From contig MCFG01000436.1 of the NCBI GenBank assembly GCA_002104895.1, positions 1 through 52,911 on the forward strand: a stretch of 52,911 bases of DNA, in the 5' to 3' direction. This document shows positions 2,736-29,032 of the stretch, one piece after another (the first letter of the stretch is position 1; every line of letters begins with the position of its first letter). This stretch comes from Anaeromyces robustus. Taxonomy: Eukaryota > Neocallimastigomycota > Neocallimastigomycetes > Neocallimastigales > Neocallimastigaceae. The notes under the pieces are model-generated. The model saw only the letters and a program-made list of their open reading frames with translations, was not told the origin of the DNA and did no database searches. A program made the position numbers and the translations under genes.

Positions 2736-5700
2736 TTATTGATTCCATTTTAAGAACATATCATCAAAATCTTCTGTTGAGAAGTTTTTATTTAAATAAT
2801 TGATAAATGCTCTTGAAAAAGTATTTCTTTCTTGATGGAAACATAATGTATTTAAATTAGAATGAAGTGATATAAATTTTTTAACTGTTTTTTCTCTAAT
2901 TCTTAAACAACCTTTAATATTTAACTAAATTTTTATTGAAAATTATAATTATATATAAAAAATAAATTATTAATAAATTAAATTATATATATAATATAGT
3001 ATGTATTATAATACTGAATATTATATGAGATTTTAATAATCTTTTATATAGATTATTATTTATATAAACTTACTTTTTCAATGTAAGGACAATATTTATT
3101 TAAGCATTCAATAGATTTATCTGTTAAGCTTTCGGAATTAGCAATAGATAAATATTTTATATTAGCTTGTTCTTTAATAAAAGATTCAAAGCCTTCATCA
3201 GTTATTCTGGGACAATCATCTATAGAAATAGCTTCTAATGATTCACAATTTTCGGCAATTATCATTAATCCATCATCAGTAATATCCATACAATCACTAA
3301 GATTTATACGTTTCACCCGATTATTTCTTGGATGATAATAATGACTACTATTACTACTACTACCATTATTATAATTTCTATTACGATTAGATTGATTATT
3401 ACTATGGAAAAGATGATCTTCAGAGTAAACGTTGGTAAGATTTTCATTCATAAAAAGAGAATCATCTTCCATAGAAAATAAATTTTCAAGTCCATGATCT
3501 GAAATATTAAGAAGTCCTGTAAAATTAATATATTCTAATTTTGGACAATAACGATTAATTAATTTTAAAGAAGCATCCGAAAAACTAGTTGTTAACATTA
3601 AACCTAATTCTTCTACATTTTTAAGATAGGGTATAATATAATCAAAGCCACTTTCTTCACATTGAACTTGAATTAAATCTAAATTTTTTAATGATGGTTC
3701 TAAATTTTTAAATATTTTTTTAATAATTGCTTTAGTTTCTAGAGAAAAGAAAGAAAGAATCAATGAACGAATATTATGGCAACGTTCTGAAATTCTTAAT
3801 AAACTACGTTCAGTAATATTTGAGGTGGAAAATGGAATAAAAAGTAATTGATATACATTCGTACATACAGATGATATTACTTCAGCTGTTAAATTACCAA
3901 AATTAACACCAAATAAAGCAAGATCTATTATATATATTATAAAAAAAAATAAAATATAAAAAAAAATATTAAATTATGATGTAAAAAAAAAATATATATA
4001 TATATATATTATTTTGTAATGTGATTTATATTATAATAAAAATGAAAATAATATATTTTATTAATATTTATTTATAAATTTTATTTAACAAATTTTCTTC
4101 AGTAATAATAATATTTTATAATACAAAATTAAATAAAAAAAAATCTTACATTTAAGATTTGGACAATTTCTTAAAATCATATTAAATGCTAATTCACCTT
4201 TACGATCATACCATTCTTTTGAATCTGGAACTTTTCCATCATGAGAAACTCTTAATACGATAGTACGGGTAGGCGAAATTTTTTCAGTTTTGCATAAAAC
4301 TTCTAAAGAAGCTGCAATTTTTAATAAAATATAAGTATTAATAGTATTTATATAATTAAAAGATAAAGTATGATAAAGTTCTTTTTGAGCCAAACGACTC
4401 CAACTACGACAAACTTGTATACAATTATATACATCTTTATAAGAATTAGCAGTAGATAAAGATGATTTTGAATTATTTTCATTAGAATTTGTTTCATCTT
4501 CATCTTCACTTTCCATTTCATCCATATCATTATCAGTATCATTATCATTATTACTGTCATCATTATTCTCATTTATATTATTTGAAATTGATGAAGAACT
4601 ATTATCACCAATATTAATATTATTGTCACTATTATTATTGCTGCTACTACTGCTATCATTATTATTATTATTATTATTACTATTGGTTATATTTTCATTT
4701 TGATCATTTGATAATGATGAAAAAGAAGAAGATGATGAAGATGTTTTATTTTTATTAAAACCTTTTTTTTCTTTATTTTTATTATTATTAGAGTCTTTTG
4801 GAATTATACGAACATATCTAAAGATTTTAGCTAATACTTCTGGAGGGAAATCTTTAATTTTGGATGAAACTTTTTCATTTGTTATATTATCAGTTCCATT
4901 TACCAATATAGATTCTCTGGAATTTTTTCTTATATTAATGTTGCAAGAACTATTAGAATGAGCATTACGATATAATTTATCTCTATTAATAAAGTTTTCT
5001 TCATCTAATAAATTACTTGCATCAATATTAAAGAAACTATGGAAAGAATCTGAAGTATTAATATCTATATTATTTATATCCATATTATCTTCATTATTTC
5101 TGGAATTAATAGAGTCGGTTGAGTAGATAGAAATTGTAGAAGTAGAAGATAATTCATGAATAGAAATAGGATTTAATGTTTTTTCCATTAGGCTTTCTGA
5201 TGATGAGATTCTTTCTGAATTATTATTGTTATTATTATTATTGTTATTATTATGATTATTATTATTATTATTATCATTGTTATTATTATCTTTTATTTCC
5301 ACTTTTCCTTTATCTTTACTTGAAACTTTATTATCTTTCATAGAATTCATCATATTATTTATAAATGTTGTATTTGACATAGAATATACAGTTATATTTT
5401 GTGAAATTGGTGGTTTTTGATTTTCATTTTCACTTTGATCTTTTAAGATATTTGTATTGATATATAAATTATCTTTTGCAAATAAATCTTTATTATATTT
5501 TTCAATCTTTAAGAAGGAATTACCTAAAATATCTAATAAACAACGAATAGAAGCTACTGATTCAGGATTAAGAATTGTATTAGACATATTATTATTTTGG
5601 ATATCTTCATTTAAATTATGATTACGAACATGTCTATTTTCATCACTAATATTATTAAATTTATTATTATAAGGATCATCAGAAATGACCAATAAATTTC

Positions 5701-6388
5701 TACAAGCACTCATAATATATAAAAGTTGACGTTTATAAGATTGAAATTTTTTTTGATAATATTCAATATTCATTTTTAATAAAAATAAATTCCTATCAAA
5801 TATATTTTCATTTCTTATACTTTCATATTTACTAAGTAATCGAAGAACTATATTTTTATTATTTATATTAATAATAATTTATTAAAAAAATGGATTATAA
5901 AAATATGAAATTAAAAAAAAAAAAAAAAATTTTTTCCATAGGAAAAAATAGAAATAGGAATTTTATAATTAATATAAATTTATATAATGCTATTAATAAT
6001 TATTAATAAAATTAAATAAAAATAAAAATATAAAAATATAAAAATAAAAAATAAATAATATCTATCTAATATTGATTATTGATGATGATTATAAAAATTT
6101 TATATATATTTAATTTAATATATGATTTTTAGAGTAATTAACTTACATTCATTATATTCAAAAGAAAATCTTGATTGAATTCCAACAAGACATAAATTTA
6201 AAGTCCATGATAGAGTTTTGTTCATTAATTTTTCACTATTATATCTACAATGAATTCCAAAATTTTCATTTTGAATATTATCATTTCTTGCTTGTTGTTG
6301 AGCATGATGATTTTCTACTTCTTGTGCCACATTTATTTCTTCAATTAAATCATTTTCGTTATCATTATTATTGTTATTATTAATATTA

Positions 6389-8581: not shown

Positions 8582-9733
8582 TTAATTTATATATTTATTA
8601 TTATTTTTTATGTAATATTTAGTAATATATATCAAATTAAACTTTTTTATGTAACATTTACGTATTCATAAAAAAATGTTTTTCTTATTGATTAATAATT
8701 ATTTATAATTTTATATAAAAATAAAAACAAAAAAAAAAAAATTCTGATTGTCAATACTCTTTATCATTCAAAATAAAAGTACAAACAGATATAATAGTTA
8801 AATATTGTGAAATCAATTTACAATACCAAATATATCCATAGAATTTCAAAAAAGAAAATGTATTATCTACATTAGTCAATGATATTACTACTAATATTAT
8901 TTATGTTAGAGATCGAGTGTAAAAATGTTTAAAAAAAAAAAATCACTATTATTTATACTGATTTTTGTTGTTTAATTCTTATAAATGTTATAAAATTATA
9001 AAAAATGGTTTGGTTAATCAAATGAAACAAAAAATTTGAGAATAAAACATTTTTTACATGATGTTGTTATTCAAAAATTTTGATTATAAACGAAAGATTT
9101 GTTTTGTTACTGAAATTTATGTCATTCATTGAAAGATGATCATTAATCATTATTTATAGTAACATAAAAAAAAATAATAATAATAAATGAAATAAATAAA
9201 GCATTAACATATACTATGCCTAAATTTTTATATAGTAAAATACAACTATTAAAAAAAGTTTTTTTTTTTTTAGATTTTAGGCTAATTAATCTTCAAAATA
9301 TTTAATTTAAAAAGTAATATATGTGTGAAATATAAATTACATATACATGAAATGCATAGTAAATAGAAGTAATAATAAAAAATACAGAAGAATATTTAAA
9401 TATATTATAGATATTAAATCAAATTAAAAATATTAAATAAACAAAAAGAAAAGAATTCTTTTTTTTTTTTTTTTTTTTTTATATAGCACAAAATTCGTAC
9501 AAAAAAAAAAAAAAAAAAAAAAAAAAAAGAAGATAAATTTCTATTTCTCCCATTCAACGAATGGAATACTACTCATATAACATATTTTTAAATCCTTAAT
9601 ATATATTAATATATTTTTGTGTTATCATTATATATGTATAATATATAAATTCAAATTAAACGAAAATAAAATGAAATAAAAAAATATTTTTTTAAATCAT
9701 ACAATTTGTACGTCATATTTATTGAGTTTAAAT
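7072..9733. other. Intergenic desert
   Basis: The first few hundred bases should carry the promoter and 5' leader of the F-box gene. The rest is A/T-rich with poly-A, (TA)n near 8560 and a short (AAAT)n at 8281-8304. A weak coding relic at 8750-9160 is listed separately. Nothing else is supported. Confidence 0.5.
8750..9160 (+). pseudogene. Possible decayed coding fragment
   Basis: Translation on the plus strand gives protein-like stretches broken by stops: KVQTDIIVKYCEINLQYQIY, then a stop, then NFKKENVLSTLVNDITTNII running into VRDRV and a stop, and further on FKNFDYKRKICFVTEIYVIH. Composition is more balanced than the flanks. I do not recognise the family; a relic of a mobile-element polyprotein or a host gene is possible. 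Weak evidence, by eye only. Confidence 0.2.
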
Positions 9734-9772
9734 GGGAAGTGTGCATTTCGGCAATGTATTTCGTAAATGTAT

Positions 9773-9937
9773 AACTCTCTTAAAAAATTTTTATATAAAT
9801 GTGGCGTCAAAAATATTTATATAAATTTAAAATATGAAATTTTTTGCATTGACAGGTCCTTTACGCCACATTTCATATTTTAAATTTATATAAATATTTT
9901 TGACGCCACATTTATATAAAAATTTTTTAAGAGAGTT
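9773..9937. repeat. Perfect 68-bp-stem hairpin inside the MITE
   Basis: 9773-9840 is the exact reverse complement of 9870-9937, with a 29-base loop (9841-9869). The arm contains GTGGCGTC / GACGCCAC. A transcript of either strand would fold into a 68-bp duplex without mismatch. The loop end repeats ACGCCACATTT from the right arm. Confidence 0.95.
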
Positions 9938-9972
9938 TATATACTAGTACTTGTATATTAAAACATTTCTTA

Positions 9973-10160
9973 TTTATTTCATAATTTAAAGAATTATAAA
10001 TATAAATTTTAAATTTCACTTAATATTTTATTTATTTCATAATTTAAAGAATTATAAATATAAATTTTAAATTTCACTTAATATTTTTTTTATTTCATAA
10101 TTTAAAGAATTATAAATATAAATTTTAAATTTCACATAATATTTTATTTATTTCATAAGT
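9973..10160. repeat. 58-bp tandem repeat, 3 copies plus partial
   Basis: The TTTCATAATTTAAAGAATTA motif recurs at 9977, 10035 and 10093, with a diverged partial copy at 10151, so the period is 58. Copies are nearly identical. The array lies within the TIR element, between the hairpin and the right end. Confidence 0.93.
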
Positions 10161-10369
10161 TAAATAAAAAAAAAAAGAAATATTAATAAAAAGAAGATAC
10201 CACTAATAAATTGGTTTCATAAATCAATAATAAATAAAATATTGATTTTAATAATATAATAAATTTTTTATTTATTTATTTTATAAGCCACAATATAATA
10301 CATTTAAATAATACGTTATTTTAATGCGCGATACATTTACGAAATACATTGCCGAAATGCACACTTCCC

Positions 10370-10408
10370 TTAATATACATGTATCATAAATAAAAAAACA
10401 CAAAATAG

Positions 10409-10465
<57 letters not shown>

Positions 10466-11442
10466 GTTAAACATTATAGATAATAATGAATAATACTTGG
10501 AGGGTATAAAGTAGTATAATAATACATAAAAACAAAATACAATAAATCCATTACCAACCCTTAAATTCTACATATAGAATTATTAAAGTAAAATTGATCT
10601 ATTTTATTCCACTTGAGTTTTTTTTTTTTTTTTTTTTACTTGAGTCGGTAATATGTTGTCTTCAAATGAAAAAAAAAAAAAAAAAAAAAAAAAAGTTTTT
10701 CCTTTTTTTTTTGTTTGTTTTTTTATTTATTTATTTATTTATTTTCAAAAATTGATCTGATAAAATCCACAGAAGATTAGAGAGAAGAAAAGAAAAGAAA
10801 TGTCAAAATCTTTTAATGTAAATAATTACATATTTTGTTGACAACAAAGGCAGTTAAAAATTTGTTTTAACAAATTTTACTATTTACTATTAAATGATTC
10901 AATACTAATTTTAGCAATTTGTTTTATTAATAATATATAAAATATATAAAAAGATACACTTTTAATTAATAAAAATGTTTTTGTTTTTTGTCTTGTTTTG
11001 TTTTGTTTTTTTATCTTTATTTTTATTTATGTTTTTTTTTTTTTATTTTTTTATTTATTTTTTTTTTTTTTTTTTTTTATATTTTTTTTTATTTTTTTAC
11101 AATTAATATTGATTAAAATTTAAAAAAAAAAAAAATTATATATATATATATCATAAAACTTTTGAAATTTACTTTCGTTTGTTATAATAAAAAAAAAAAA
11201 AGTATATTATATATATATTATATTATAAATCTTTTATATAAAAAATAAAGAAAATTTTTAAATTTTAAATTTTTAATAATAAGAAAAAATTAATAATGAA
11301 ATAAAAGAAAATTTTTTATATATTATAAAATAAAAAATTTGAAATATGAAAAAAAAAAAAATAATTTTTTATATTTATTAGATTTTGTTTTGCTTTTGCT
11401 TTGTTTTTAAGTTTTGTTTTTGCTTGCTTTCTTTAAATTCCT
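10370..11442. other. Intergenic, homopolymer-rich
   Basis: Contains long poly-A and poly-T tracts, a T/G-rich stretch around 10980-11030, and A/T filler. No coding support. The part near 11380-11440 (TTTTGCTTTGC-like) is probably 3' untranslated sequence of the zinc-finger gene. Confidence 0.5.
10409..10462. repeat. Poly-A tract, ~54 bases
   Basis: Uninterrupted run of A, the longest homopolymer in the window, 40 bases beyond the right end of the TIR element. Confidence 0.95.
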
Positions 11443-11482
11443 TCAGTTAATAATGCTTTTTTTTTTTTTTTTTTTTTTTTTA

Positions 11483-11540
11483 GTTAACATGACAAGAAAT
11501 CTTTTTTTTTTTTTAGTTAACATGACAAGAAATCTTTTCA
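11483..11540 (-). repeat. 33-bp tandem duplication over the zinc-finger stop codon
   Basis: GTTAACATGACAAGAAATC followed by a T-run occurs at 11483 and again at 11516, a period of 33. On the gene strand this duplicates the last sense codons (ISCHVN) and the TAA stop; the second copy falls in the 3' untranslated region. Confidence 0.92.
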
Positions 11541-13602
11541 TGACGATGAAGAGCATCCTTTCTGTTAAATGTCTTTCCACATTCTTACAATAAAACTTTT
11601 CTCCTTCATGAATAGAAGCAATATGACGGCTCAAAACAGATGCACTAAAGAAGCTGTCATTACAGAACTTACAAGTAAAATCCTTGTTTCTTTTTGGGTT
11701 ATGAATTCTAATGTGTTCCTTCAAGTTAAATTCTCTATTAAACTTCTTATGACATGACATAAATGGACAAATGCTAAACTTTCTTGGTTTTCTTGGACGA
11801 CCCTTTCCCCTCTTTAATTTTGAAAGCTTTTCAAGTTCAATAACATCTTCCATAACAACTTCAACTGGAGCAAGGTGAACTAATTTAGTAATATTTTCAT
11901 TAGTAAAATTAAAGGTCAATTCATTTACTTTACATTGCTTAATAGTTTCATTAGATGGGAAGGAAAGTTCTTCTAGGAAAGCACCAAAATCTTCATCACA
12001 TAAAGTAACTTCAGATGTCTTTTGAGCAGAATTTTGGGTTTCAGTTTCAGTTTCAATTCCAGTTCCAGTTTTAGTTCCGTTCGAATTTGAAGATGAAGTA
12101 GTTCCTGTAGTAATACCATCATTTCCATTAATTATATTGTTAAGTTCCTTCAAAAGCATGCTAACCTTCTCCAAATTAGTATTTTTTTCTTCTTTATTTT
12201 CTTGATTAGTAACCTCTGATTGAGCAGCTTTTACATCTTCATTACCTAAAAGGTCATTACCTTCAAATATTGAAGTATTAATTGGCATTGCTGGAATTGC
12301 AAACATTTCATCATTAATGTCAGTTGAAGTGTTAGTAGCAGACAAATTTGGAGTAGACATAACTGGGAAAGCAAATGGTGATTCAACGACAGAATTAACA
12401 TTGTTTTGTAAGAGTGGGGAAGCCATAACAATGCTATCAACCAAAGATGGATTCTGAAGTGGTGGAATAAATGTTGATGAAGTTGAACCTGAAATAATAG
12501 GAGATGGAGCTAAAAGATCGTTAATAGAAGAAACAGAGTTATTTCTAGTAACATCATTAAACATTCCAATAAATGGAGAAGCCATTTGTGGAGTATTTAA
12601 AAGAGCTTCAGCTGGGCTTGTAATGGTTGAAATGGTTGCAGAATCATTAATAAGTGGAGTGGTTTCAATCATTGGAATTGGGCTCTTAAATGGGTTTAAT
12701 TCATCCTTTGAAACAATAGAAGTAGAATCAGATAAACATGAATCGATATCCATGATTGGTGTGGTTAATGGATTAATTGGTGTAATTGGAGTAGATGGAA
12801 TGTTACAAGACAATATGTTTTCCTTATGAATTAAACCATTAATTGGTGAAAAGACATCTGGACTTGGCATTATTTGATTCATCTGAGTGTCTATAACAGG
12901 TAAAGTAAAAAGATCAACAGAAGGAGTTTTTGGTAAAAAGAGAGTTTTATTATCATTTTCCTTATTAATAACTGAAGAAGCAAGTAAATTTTCGTCTAAA
13001 AAGACATTATTTAAAGGAGTAGCCATTGGTGTAGCTAATTGAGTATTTATTTGAGTAGTATTATCAAGTTTAGAAATATTTTCAGTAGAAGATTGAGTAG
13101 CAATATCAGTTACGTTTTCTTCGATTTCGTTGGTTGTAGTTGAAGATAATTCTTTTTCGTTATCAAATAATTTTTCCCCAAGAGTCTTGAAAATTTCCAT
13201 AAAGCTCTCAGGGTTAACTTCTTTCAATGACTCAATAAATTCCTTTTTAGTAGTTACATCTTGGATTTTATCCTTATTTCCTGTAAATACCATTTTAAGA
13301 ATTTCTTCAATTGGTCTGCTTTCCTGATTTTCAACGGCAATATTTTCGATTGAAGTTTTTTCGTTTAACAAGGTTTCAACAGATACCGATGTAATTTCAT
13401 CATCAATGAATTCATTCAATGAAGAAGAAGACGACGATCTCGTAAACTTCTTGGTTGACCCGGTATCGATCTGTGAATTGGTGATACATGACTTCTTCTC
13501 TTCTCTATCAAATAACCTTCTTCTTGGCGAAAAACAGCGATAATTAAATTGTTTTGATACATTTTCTAAATTCTTAACTTCGTTATTAAAGGTAAATTTC
13601 AT
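11513..13602 (-). CDS. C2H2 zinc-finger transcription factor, Ace2/Swi5-like; frameshifted in finger 3
   Basis: The frame opens at 13602 (MKFTFNNEVK). Read straight through, it ends in a poly-Lys tail at 11443. The third finger is out of frame by one base at about 11584: on the gene strand TGTAAGAATGTGG would need one more base to give C-K-x-C. Past that point the other frame reads GKTFNRKDALHRHEKISC and stops at 11513. Allowing for that base, the length is 2091 nt, 696 codons. Residues 25-31 are SPRRRLF, a cyclin-docking-type motif. The middle is Ser/Thr-rich with over a dozen SP/TP sites. GRPRKP near 605 is AT-hook-like. Fingers 1 (CPFMSC...HIRIH) and 2 (CKFC...HIASIH) are intact. Finger 3 is C2HC, as in yeast Ace2/Swi5. 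Likely a nuclear, kinase-regulated activator. Codon use is richer in G/C than the neighbours. Sequencing error and a real mutation are both possible. Confidence 0.85.
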
Positions 13603-25291: not shown

Positions 25292-25956
25292 TTAATAACG
25301 ATGATAATAATTACAATCATCATCATCCATAATCTTCCAAAATTCAATATTAATAATTTCAAAACTTATATTTGGTGGTTCATAATAAGTAGGTACAGTT
25401 TTTGATAATAATTCTGTTTTAGGACAATAAGTAAGAGGTTCATTACGAAAAGTATCACAATAAGAAGTTGTACCTCCATCTAAATCTCTATCAATACATA
25501 ATCCAAAATGTCCCTTTTTACCTCCTCCAAAGGCTATAATTTCTCGTGATGTTAAAACATTTAATTCATTTAATCCTGTCCATTCATAAACTTTAAATGG
25601 ATGTTCCTTTCCTTCTACTATTCTTTCTTCTCCTCCTCCTTCTTTTTGCCATAAAAAGCATTCTCCTGAACCATAATATCTTGTTGAAATATGAACACTT
25701 TCTGGTATATAAGCACCAAAAATTTGATCTTCACTATCTTTTATTGCCATAATTAATGGTCCTTTATCAACAATTTTATCACATAATGTAAGAAAACTTG
25801 ATCCATGATCACTTAAACTAAATATTAATTCCCATGTAGAATAATCACGATAACGTCTTGGTAAATGAAAACGTAATTTTTCTGCTGTTATGGTATCTAA
25901 AACTTGATCAGGTGAAATAATTTCTTCTTTTTCTATTTCACCTAAAGTCATTGGTT

Positions 25957-26003
<47 letters not shown>

Positions 26004-26504
26004 ATATTATCATTATCATTATTTTCTTCTTTAGAATGATGATGACTAGATTGAAGTTTTTCTAAATATTGATAACGACTATAAACAGGATTATAAAGAC
26101 GTAATTTTTCTGGTTCGGGTATAATACTATTGAAACTTGAAGGTTCAATTTTCATATCTTGTTCTTGATCATCATAACTAAAGAATAATGATTTTTTACG
26201 ATTAATTGTTTTTTCTCTTACTTTTTCTATAAAATCTGGATCAAATACAGATTGTATTTTTTGTCCAATTTTCTTTTCAGCTTCTGCATTAATAAATGAT
26301 GAAAATATTGAAGCAGTAGATTTAATAAATGAATGATCTGCTAAATCATATTCATTTTCATTATCATTTTCATTTTCATTTTCACTTTCACTTTCATTTT
26401 CTTTATCATCATGATCACTTAATGAATTTGCATTAGAACTTAAACTAGTAAAGGAAAAACCTGATAAAAAGTTTGATAAAGAAAGACGTGGTACTGATAT
26501 ACTA

Positions 26505-26538
<34 letters not shown>

Positions 26539-26591
26539 GAACATATTTATCTTTATAATTTAATGAACGTGAATGACGTAATTCCCCATTA

Positions 26592-26624
<33 letters not shown>

Positions 26625-27004
26625 GTTTCATCAGTATTATTAATTAAAACATTATCACTAAAATTAACTGATCTTTTGGATTTATTAAAGTAAGATGTAG
26701 AAGTATAAATAGTTTTACGACGTCTTATACCTTTATTTTGATTTGAATTTTGATGATTTTCATCACTTTTATTATTAGTTTTCTTACTTTCTGGTACATC
26801 GATTGTCATTCTTCTCTTTAGAGGTTTTATTACAGTCTCTTGATGATTTGGATAATAATATTTTTTTGATGACGATGGTTGAACTGAAACTGGATTTTCT
26901 TCAGTAATTTGAGAATTAATAATTTCTTCTTCATTTTCAACCTCTTCTTCAATAGTATGAATATGAGCATTTTCTAAAATTGAAGAAATTGAAGATGAAT
27001 CTGA

Positions 27005-27041
<37 letters not shown>

Positions 27042-27933
27042 GATATATTTTGCTTTTTATTTTTAAATGAATAATATAATGGTGAACTTTGAGGACTACG
27101 ACTTTCATTATTATTATTGTTGTTTTTGTTATTATTGATATTATTTTTACTATTATTAATATTAAAAGAAGGAACGGTTAATTTGTTATTATTAGAATGA
27201 TAAATATTATTTTCAGGGAATGACTGACTATAATATGGTGGATCTATTTTATAACGAATATGTTTATTTTTTTGGTTTATTGGAATAATTTTAGAAGATT
27301 TATTTAAAATAGAATTAATATCCTTACAAGAAATAGGTTCAGGTTCATCTTTATTTTCTTTATGAATTTTCATATTTTTTAAAGATTCTTGTTCTTTAAG
27401 CAATGTTTCATTATTATAATCAGAAAGTGAACCCAAAGATGAAGCAATAAGTACACCTTTTTCATCTTTTGTTTCTAATGGTATAATAGGTGAAGGAAGA
27501 AGAAGTAATGAGTCAACATGATTATTATTTTTATTATTATTATTATTATCATTATTAGTATTATTATTATTATCATTATCACTATCACTACTACTAGACT
27601 GTACAGACAATCTATTATATGAATTTTGTAATGGTGGTAAAACAACATAAGAACTACCATTGGATAATAAAGGTAATGAAGTGATTGATTTATTTAAAGA
27701 TGAAGATGTAGATGAATTAGAGCCATGAGATGAATTGGAAGAATATTTTCTATAATTCTTATTGTTATTATTTCCAGTAGGTATATTAACATTAACTTCT
27801 GTATCTGAAGGTACATTTACATTAACATTTGAATTTGCATTGGCATAAACATCTGAAAGATTATTAAATATATTAAGAAAAGATTGAAAATCAATTTTTG
27901 TATTGGAGGATTTTTTATTTTTAGAAGGTGATG

Positions 27934-27982
<49 letters not shown>

Positions 27983-29032
27983 AGAAGATGATGGAATATC
28001 TTTTGAAATAGAACTAATACTATTAATAACAGTAGATGATTTTTTAGAATTCTTTTTTGAAGACAATATTAAATTTGAATCCATTTTGGATTTAATTTCT
28101 TTTAAATGTTGTATACTTTCTTCCAATAAAGGAGGTGAAGATCTAAATTCTGTGTTATTATAATCAATATTATCATTATTATCATTAGATAATGATTTAG
28201 TTAATTCTTCTTCTTTTGATTTTAATTTTGATTCAGATGAAAACTTAGACTTAATAGGTAATGATGAAGAAGAAGAAGAAGAAACAATATCTGAAGAAGA
28301 TATTTTTTGTTGATAATTAGTATGATATGGTATTGACATTACTGCATTTTCAATAGTAGGTGAAGATATCGTTGGACTTGAAGGTGATTTCAATCCTCCT
28401 TCCATAAGATTTAATCCTTCTGTTAAATTATTATTAGAAAGATATGGATGATTAGATAACGTATAAAGTGATGAAAGACCATAAGGTATAGATCCAGATT
28501 TAAGATCTAATGTAGAAATTCTAGGTGAAGAATTAGAATTAATAGTAGAATTAGAAGCAGAAGATATTAAATCTATATCATGATCAGAATTAAATTTTGA
28601 TTTTTCATTATCTAAAAGAAAACCATTCATTGCTTTTTTTAATAAATAATTTGGATTTTCTCTTTTCTTCTTTCTACGTGTAGAATCTAAATATTCCTTA
28701 TTACTTTGACTTGATAATGATTTACTTTTATTAAAATCATTATTATATTTTAATGAAGCAATACTTATATTTGGGTATAAAGAAGATTCTAATGAACTGG
28801 ATTCATGACTCATTTCTGAATTTGTATTTTCTATATTATTAACAATAGAATTATCGTTGTCTTCTGAAGAATTATAAGATTGAGTTAATTCCTGAATTTG
28901 TTCCACTAAATCCTGTGGCAATGGTATATTATCTACATCCTCTGAATTTATAACTTCTTCCTTTCCTATAATATTTGATTCATTTACCACACCTTTCACC
29001 GAAAGGGTATTATCAATAATTAAATCTGACAT
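25292..29032 (-). CDS. TLDc-domain protein (OXR1-like), 1246 aa, single exon
   Basis: An uninterrupted frame from ATG 29032 (MSDLIIDNTLSVKG) to TAA 25292. Residues about 1039-1246 form a TLDc domain: ISPDQVLDTI, then LRFHLPRRYRDYSTWELIFS, SLSDHGSSFLTL, GPLIMAIKDSEDQIFGAYIP, GSGECFLW, IIAFGGGKKGHFGLCID and the ending EIINIEFWKI. These are the family's hallmark blocks. Known for the family: TLDc proteins (OXR1, NCOA7, yeast Oxr1/Rtc5) protect against oxidative damage and bind the V-ATPase, promoting its disassembly in yeast. The N-terminal 1040 residues are Ser/Asn-rich, with several AAT-encoded poly-Asn runs, a poly-Thr run (ACT repeat, 25961-26002) and acidic stretches, and show no domain I recognise. 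Yeast Oxr1 is only about 270 residues, so the extension is striking. Whether it is Oxr1 or Rtc5 cannot be told. Low-complexity runs may be polymorphic in length. Confidence 0.92.

Follow-up and report, generated by a model that had tools for sequence, protein, structure and literature searches.

A two-right-ended derivative of a MULE-derived MITE family in Anaeromyces robustus

Several described systems bear on the element treated here. Tm1, a Mutator/Foldback family of Meloidogyne with a Phantom-like MULE transposase, is described as having target duplications of 8-10 bp, mostly 9 bp (45/53), and one M. hapla Tm1 element carries motif A2 at both ends and has no duplication, for which the authors suggest a crossover (PMC3169594). 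MULEs that bear FLYWCH (such as MuDRx-Phytophthora and Phantom) have 8-11-bp duplications and, in the set considered in PMC6446971, TIRs of 14-500 bp; the word stem 'neocallimast' is absent from the main text of that paper. In yeast, fold-back at double-strand breaks has been described that involves inverted microhomology, a 41-nt loop, synthesis by polymerase delta and capture by end joining, and the fold-back insertions reported at nuclease cuts are ~2-150 bp long, the majority <14 bp (PMC11724301). Finally, Pack-TIR gap filling, or FoSTeST template switching, has been described inside TIR elements in animals (PMC8277862).

Here we analyse a 636-bp unit at positions 9734-10369 of a 52,911-base stretch of A. 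robustus DNA, which is the entire contig C375 and is referred to as the window; the genome searched is a 70.17-Mb assembly of 769 contigs. A preliminary description, made from the window alone, had taken the unit to be a mobile TIR element with a hairpin core. Its reading of the sequence is accurate, and its inference that the 636-bp unit itself moves with perfect TIRs is not supported. The unit is a rearranged copy of a family that is new, while the kind to which it belongs, the MULE-derived MITE, is known. Like Tm1 (PMC3169594), this family combines non-coding MITE-like copies with transposase-bearing copies, mostly 9-bp duplications and tandem repeats, and in both the terminal motifs that lie beyond the inverted repeat are unequal; it differs from Tm1 in host and sequence, and the tandem repeats of Tm1 (mostly 14-bp units) lie in the TIR, whereas the 58-bp array of this family is internal to the element. 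With the FLYWCH-bearing MULEs of PMC6446971 the transposase-bearing relatives share a FLYWCH zinc finger in a MULE, a comparison made by domain matches and duplications.

Anatomy of the family and its transposase-bearing relatives

With the 636-bp unit as query, at least 171 matches were obtained in the genome (the best 40 of 352 candidates were scored). A whole-genome pattern search allowing up to three mismatches gave 137 right (R) ends and 118 left (L) ends, and the reversed-pattern controls gave 0. Pairing was carried out for the ends listed, i.e. 100 of the 137 R ends and 100 of the 118 L ends, and yielded 72 L-R pairs, three nominal R-R pairs and one nominal L-L pair, with 48 ends unpaired. 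Reading of the sequences left two real R-R copies among these ends, the window copy and a copy on contig C136; since 37 R and 18 L ends fall outside the pairing, further R-R copies may exist. A 697-bp copy on C150 was taken off the R-R count because its sequence looks L-R, the left end being longer and the T-rich flanks sharing 8 bp, TATTTTTT. The nominal L-L copy, on C130, is probably one unit with a left end, a right end and a 9-bp duplication. It extends from position 213 of L073 (C130:18212) to position 898 of L074 (C130:22797), approximately 4.6 kb, of which the two ends were read; a 42-bp right end lies directly outside an inverted left end, and an exact 9-bp match, ATAAATTTA, flanks the whole. 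This chimera hints that ~40 bp of the right end are enough for transposition.

The L-R pairs span between 417 and 1572 bp, 61 of the 72 falling between 446 and 623 bp, and lengths in the family cluster at ~446, 505, 563 and 622 bp. The step of ~58 bp is as expected from a 58-bp tandem array, which in the window copy comprises 3.4 copies (9970-10164, plus strand) and is not mentioned in the preliminary description. The 1,572-bp copy (L075, C371:42227-43798) apparently contains a long run of this tandem unit. The two ends of normal copies are unequal and have only a 16-bp core, GCATTTCGGCAATGTA, in common. In the 29 other copies that were read (L002-L030), a 26-bp left end, CTGAGTGTAGCATTTCGGCAATGTAC, is present where the window copy has its left 100 bp; the left end of L019 has one change and the start of L018 is altered.

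An exact 9-bp target duplication was found in 26/29 of these normal copies, and flank reading of the remaining three revealed exact 8-bp duplications (L011 and L015) and a 7-bp duplication beside the altered left end of L018. At six more loci, where seven elements were scored, five exact 9-bp duplications were present (two in L064 and one each in L075, L077 and L079), and in L078 8 bp are common to both flanks. Two left ends lie in tandem in L076 (C332:18250-19350), with an 8-bp match, TTAAAACA, at the inner and none at the outer. Target sites could also be compared with their uninterrupted counterparts. One copy (L026) sits inside another member of the family, at a spot that is uninterrupted in others, with CGTTATTTT duplicated, and a single ATTTCACAT at a related site in L030 corresponds to the same sequence duplicated around L019, the two loci differing at other nearby bases. 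The preliminary description had looked to several copies with identical ends and to empty sites at allelic or sister-strain loci for proof of mobility and for the target duplication; the family has many copies, sites that lack the element, and target duplications. Mean substitution divergence among the 29 normal copies is 0.33% (substitutions only, indels not included), which indicates recent activity.

Searching the genome for the MULE domain gave 36 places, 30 of which were taken as loci with up to ~1.5 kb per side. Family ends were seen at three of the 30 (L038, L039 and L042), and these transposase-bearing relatives with similar ends are ~2.7-2.9 kb long. Stretches of 150 bp from the MITE ends align to L042, L038 and L039 at 84-94%, and by flank reading 9-bp duplications are present, TAATGAAAC around L042 and TATTTAAAG around both L038 and L039; since the last two have flanks in common, they may be one duplicated locus. 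Moreover, MITE positions 11-291 and 164-563 align to positions 10-279 and 2484-2894 of the L042 element at 79-80%, so that the MITE seems to have arisen from such an element by internal deletion. Matches to the FLYWCH (PF04500) and MULE (PF10551) domains occur in pieces of L042 and L038, in both of which the frames are broken, and in L039 there is a stop within the domain; no intact transposase gene with family ends was found at the 30 MULE loci (up to ~1.5 kb on each side). Two fragments, L036 and L037, are 97% and 92% identical to L042 and have no ends in view.

Intact FLYWCH-MULE genes are present at L049 (474 aa) and L035 (480 aa). Both, and a 425-aa frame at L048, were considered as partners of the family and rejected: all are related, but the inverted repeats found around L049 consist of another sequence (GTGCATTTCGGAATC, repeated), only short ones were found around L035, and those surrounding L048 differ from the family ends or are short. 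The end core GCATTTCGGAATC was seen in related MULE/MITE sequences in L006 (C26), upstream of the element there, and at L066, L049 and L065 (C114), where it is tandemly repeated inside an inverted repeat. Among the 120 protein matches listed, many come from Neocallimastix species, and the transposase type is thus widespread in gut fungi.

The family is young, non-coding and MITE-like: its copies are short, many and near-identical, with inverted ends, and appear to derive by internal deletion from a larger element. The fold-back arm of the window copy occurs in 0/29 of the other copies read, and a Foldback (FB-like) structure is hence no property of the family. Duplications in the 8-11-bp range of Mutator/MULE elements, mostly of 9 bp, characterise the family and are missing from the window copy, and the family ends recur in elements with a MULE transposase (L042, L038 and L039, with broken genes). 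On the basis of the target duplications and the transposase-bearing relatives we place the family in the Mutator (MULE) superfamily. Judged from sequence it is a non-autonomous Mutator/MULE, a MULE-derived MITE, and its normal copies would depend for movement on a FLYWCH-MULE transposase acting in trans. The preliminary description had likewise called for a transposase in trans, which fits the non-coding unit and the existence of transposase-bearing relatives. hAT elements make 8-bp duplications and P elements 7-8-bp duplications, and each superfamily has its own transposases; membership in either was rejected, as 9-bp duplications dominate and the partner elements have the MULE domain. No exact match to the right end was found in the viral_contigs or genome_contigs collections, and none of the top-listed titles in the literature searched describes the family.

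Structure of the window copy

The inverted repeats that bound the unit (9734-9772, plus strand, and 10331-10369, minus strand) are 39 bp long and perfect. With up to three mismatches allowed, the first 30 bp of the TIR occur twice in the window, both times exactly, compared to 0 occurrences in each of 100 dinucleotide shuffles. Next to the left repeat, on its inner side, lies a hairpin with 68-bp arms (9773-9840, minus strand, and 9870-9937, plus strand) of 100% complementarity and a 29-nt loop (9841-9869, plus strand), the loop and the second arm being normal element sequence. Its folding energy, calculated as single-stranded DNA, is -64.2 kcal/mol vs -11.9 (sd 2.7) in 200 shuffles (z = -19.5). 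Three ATG frames of at least 25 aa overlap the unit, the longest being 38 aa. The perfect ends, the hairpin core and the lack of coding content were correctly seen in the preliminary description, as were two CGAAAT boxes, both of which are present in the right-end repeat.

Comparison with a normal copy, L005, resolves the unit into its parts. The normal MITE body, from L005 position 27 to the right terminus, occupies 9834-10369 (plus strand) with 536/536 aligned bases identical and one 1-nt gap. To its left, in place of the first 26 bp of a normal copy, stand the right end in inverted orientation (39 bp, 9734-9772) and an inverted arm (68 bp, 7 of which overlap the body), i.e. the reverse complement of 9870-9937, which corresponds to L005 positions 63-130; the window copy is therefore an R-R fold-back derivative. 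It has gained 100 bp, 61 from the arm and 39 from the right end. We also considered a hairpin MITE nested inside a larger element; this was rejected, since the arm repeats, in inverted orientation, positions 63-130 of the element itself. At the fold-back junction there is a 7-bp microhomology, ATGAAAT (9834-9840, plus strand); of fold-back junctions drawn at random in L005, 0.95% have microhomology of at least 7 bp. Where the arm joins the right end, 394 bp of internal sequence are deleted, and the microhomology at this join is 0 bp. Allowing up to three mismatches, this deletion junction occurs once in the genome, in the window copy only, and no progenitor with the same 394-bp deletion was found.

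The TIR of the window copy is perfect because both its ends are the same, right, end. Selection or recent movement, either of which the preliminary description took the identity of the ends to imply, thus need not be invoked for the 636-bp unit. The perfect TIR and the hairpin are products of the rearrangement and not family anatomy, and the window copy is, as far as the searches show, a one-off derivative. The first proposal, that the 636-bp unit transposes normally in its own right as a TIR element around a hairpin core, draws on its perfect ends and on the mobility of the family, but is hardly credible given a junction that occurs once, the absence of a target duplication and a structure that is absent in 29/29 other copies read. 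What stands of the earlier claim is that the unit consists of mobile-element DNA whose family has copies at many loci and sites without the element; likewise, a genome search does find the right end at many loci, and a search for the junction particular to the window copy finds it in one place.

Insertion site and proposed origin

The 9 bp to the left of the unit, AGTTTAAAT (9725-9733, plus strand), differ from the 9 bp to its right, TTAATATAC (10370-10378, plus strand), and there is consequently no target-site duplication. The unit interrupts a dispersed repeat (9629-10618, i.e. 9629-9733 plus 10370-10618, without strand assignment). When the joined flanks were compared with the genome, at least 34 other places aligned long across the junction at 75-84% identity (the best 40 of 691 candidates were scored), and on C310 there is, besides these 34, one short alignment across the empty site. 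All 16 empty sites that were read (L082-L097) run GAGTTTAAAT-A-TTAATATAC, apart from base changes in some of them, while in the window GAGTTTAAAT is followed by the 636 bp and then TTAATATAC; for L084 the aligner put mismatches instead of a gap, and the extra A is present. A clean empty target would read GAGTTTAAATATTAATATAC. As one extra A is present in 16/16 empty sites, a single base pair of the target was lost to the element, the rest staying intact, and no target sequence was duplicated, in contrast to the normal copies of the family.

Open frames on the minus strand of the window gave further domain matches, namely a TLDc match (25292-29032, E 4.6e-34), an F-box-like match (4085-5773), and, below the cut-off, a C2H2 zinc-finger match (11443-13602) and an LRR match (3056-3763).

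The empty sites bear on how two right ends came together. A crossover between two elements, or two insertions side by side whose intervening sequence was later deleted, would also yield two right ends without a common duplication, but should leave remnants of duplications or unrelated flanks. The flanks are contiguous, bar 1 bp, in 16/16 empty sites read, which makes such an origin extremely improbable. For the M. hapla Tm1 element with identical ends, for which a crossover was suggested, the account in PMC3169594 that describes it reports no empty site; for the window copy the empty sites disfavour this explanation. Palindromes are hard to assemble and the structure is single-copy, as an assembly or sequencing artefact around the palindrome would be. 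A chimera from a fold-back read would, however, give flanks that are inverted copies of each other, which they are not, and on both sides the flanks match the empty-site repeat; we regard an artefact as very unlikely.

We favour, at a probability of roughly 70%, the reading that the window copy is an R-R derivative which arose by fold-back synthesis during transposition or repair and then entered the target through end joining, either alone or together with strand transfer of one end, and not by normal two-ended integration, within a family moved by a FLYWCH-MULE. Its likely origin is, in short, fold-back synthesis and end joining, the steps of rearrangement and insertion being deduced from one product. 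During an attempt at transposition or repair, a broken left end would be resected to ATGAAAT, would fold back on its own ATTTCAT across the 29-nt loop and would prime synthesis along itself. Synthesis would then jump to a right-end template that ended exactly at the terminus; that the left side ends precisely at a right-end terminus suggests that this template had already been cut by transposase. The resulting two-right-ended molecule would be joined to the target by either of the two routes; in the second, strand transfer of one right end and subsequent end joining would be predicted to leave the target's left edge short by 1 bp, as is seen. Against this explanation speak the lack of microhomology where the arm meets the right end, the lack of an intact transposase with family ends at the loci checked, and the size of the gain, 100 bp, next to yeast fold-back insertions that are mostly <14 bp.

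Alternatively, the rearrangement may have taken place in situ. A break in an older normal copy with the duplication TTAATATAC would have cost it the left end together with 10 bp of flanking sequence, and the missing side would have been rebuilt by fold-back synthesis and end joining with a copy of the right end. The intact normal body, right end and complete right flank agree with such a repair, as does the microhomology at the fold-back. By chance, the length of flank lost would then have to be that of the 9-bp duplication and 1 bp more, and copying of the right end would have to stop exactly at the terminus though flanking sequence continues beyond it; we therefore consider repair in situ unlikely.

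The favoured reading, fold-back synthesis followed by joining to a target, can be set beside the two repair processes mentioned above. As in the fold-back inversions of yeast (PMC11724301), there is inverted microhomology near the break, a loop of tens of nt and an inverted duplication, and in yeast the other side is captured by end joining with 0-5 bp of homology, which we count as a likeness; the window copy differs in having 61 nt of new arm and a 39-bp jump, within a transposon. Pack-TIR/FoSTeST (PMC8277862) resembles it in that templates are switched within TIR elements, MULEs among them, and often at microhomologies, but it captures other sequence, while the window copy shows a shuffling of the element's own ends alone.

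A second R-R copy and a tentative rule for unlike ends

The R-R copy on C136 is a perfect 82-bp R-R palindrome (L062 150-231, C136:46449-46530) with a CGCG centre and no loop, and was found once. Its flanks, ATTTAATTA and AAAATTAGT, have no target duplication. A search for its empty site gave no notable alignment across the junction, the matches being mostly AT-rich and weak. A duplication is thus absent in 2/2 R-R copies and some duplication is present in 29/29 L-R copies (p = 0.002 in a post hoc test that covers two R-R events; p = 0.006, calculated by hand, when L018 is counted as lacking a duplication).

These data allow a speculative rule, to which we give limited credence, namely that concerted integration might need one L and one R end, and that R-R fold-back molecules, cut precisely at both termini, might be joined by one strand transfer plus end joining and so enter without a duplication. 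The window copy, the C136 palindrome and the same-end M. hapla Tm1 element would then be three such products. No paper on same-end MULE insertion was found in the literature searched. If true, the rule would make the choice of ends in MULE integration testable and would give a reason why some MITEs are without target duplications.

What appeared to be a new TIR element is, in our analysis, a dissected rearrangement of a MULE-derived MITE, with fold-back duplication of an end, no target duplication and exact empty sites. It also carries a warning, in that a long perfect TIR together with a hairpin in a single copy is no evidence of an active unit.
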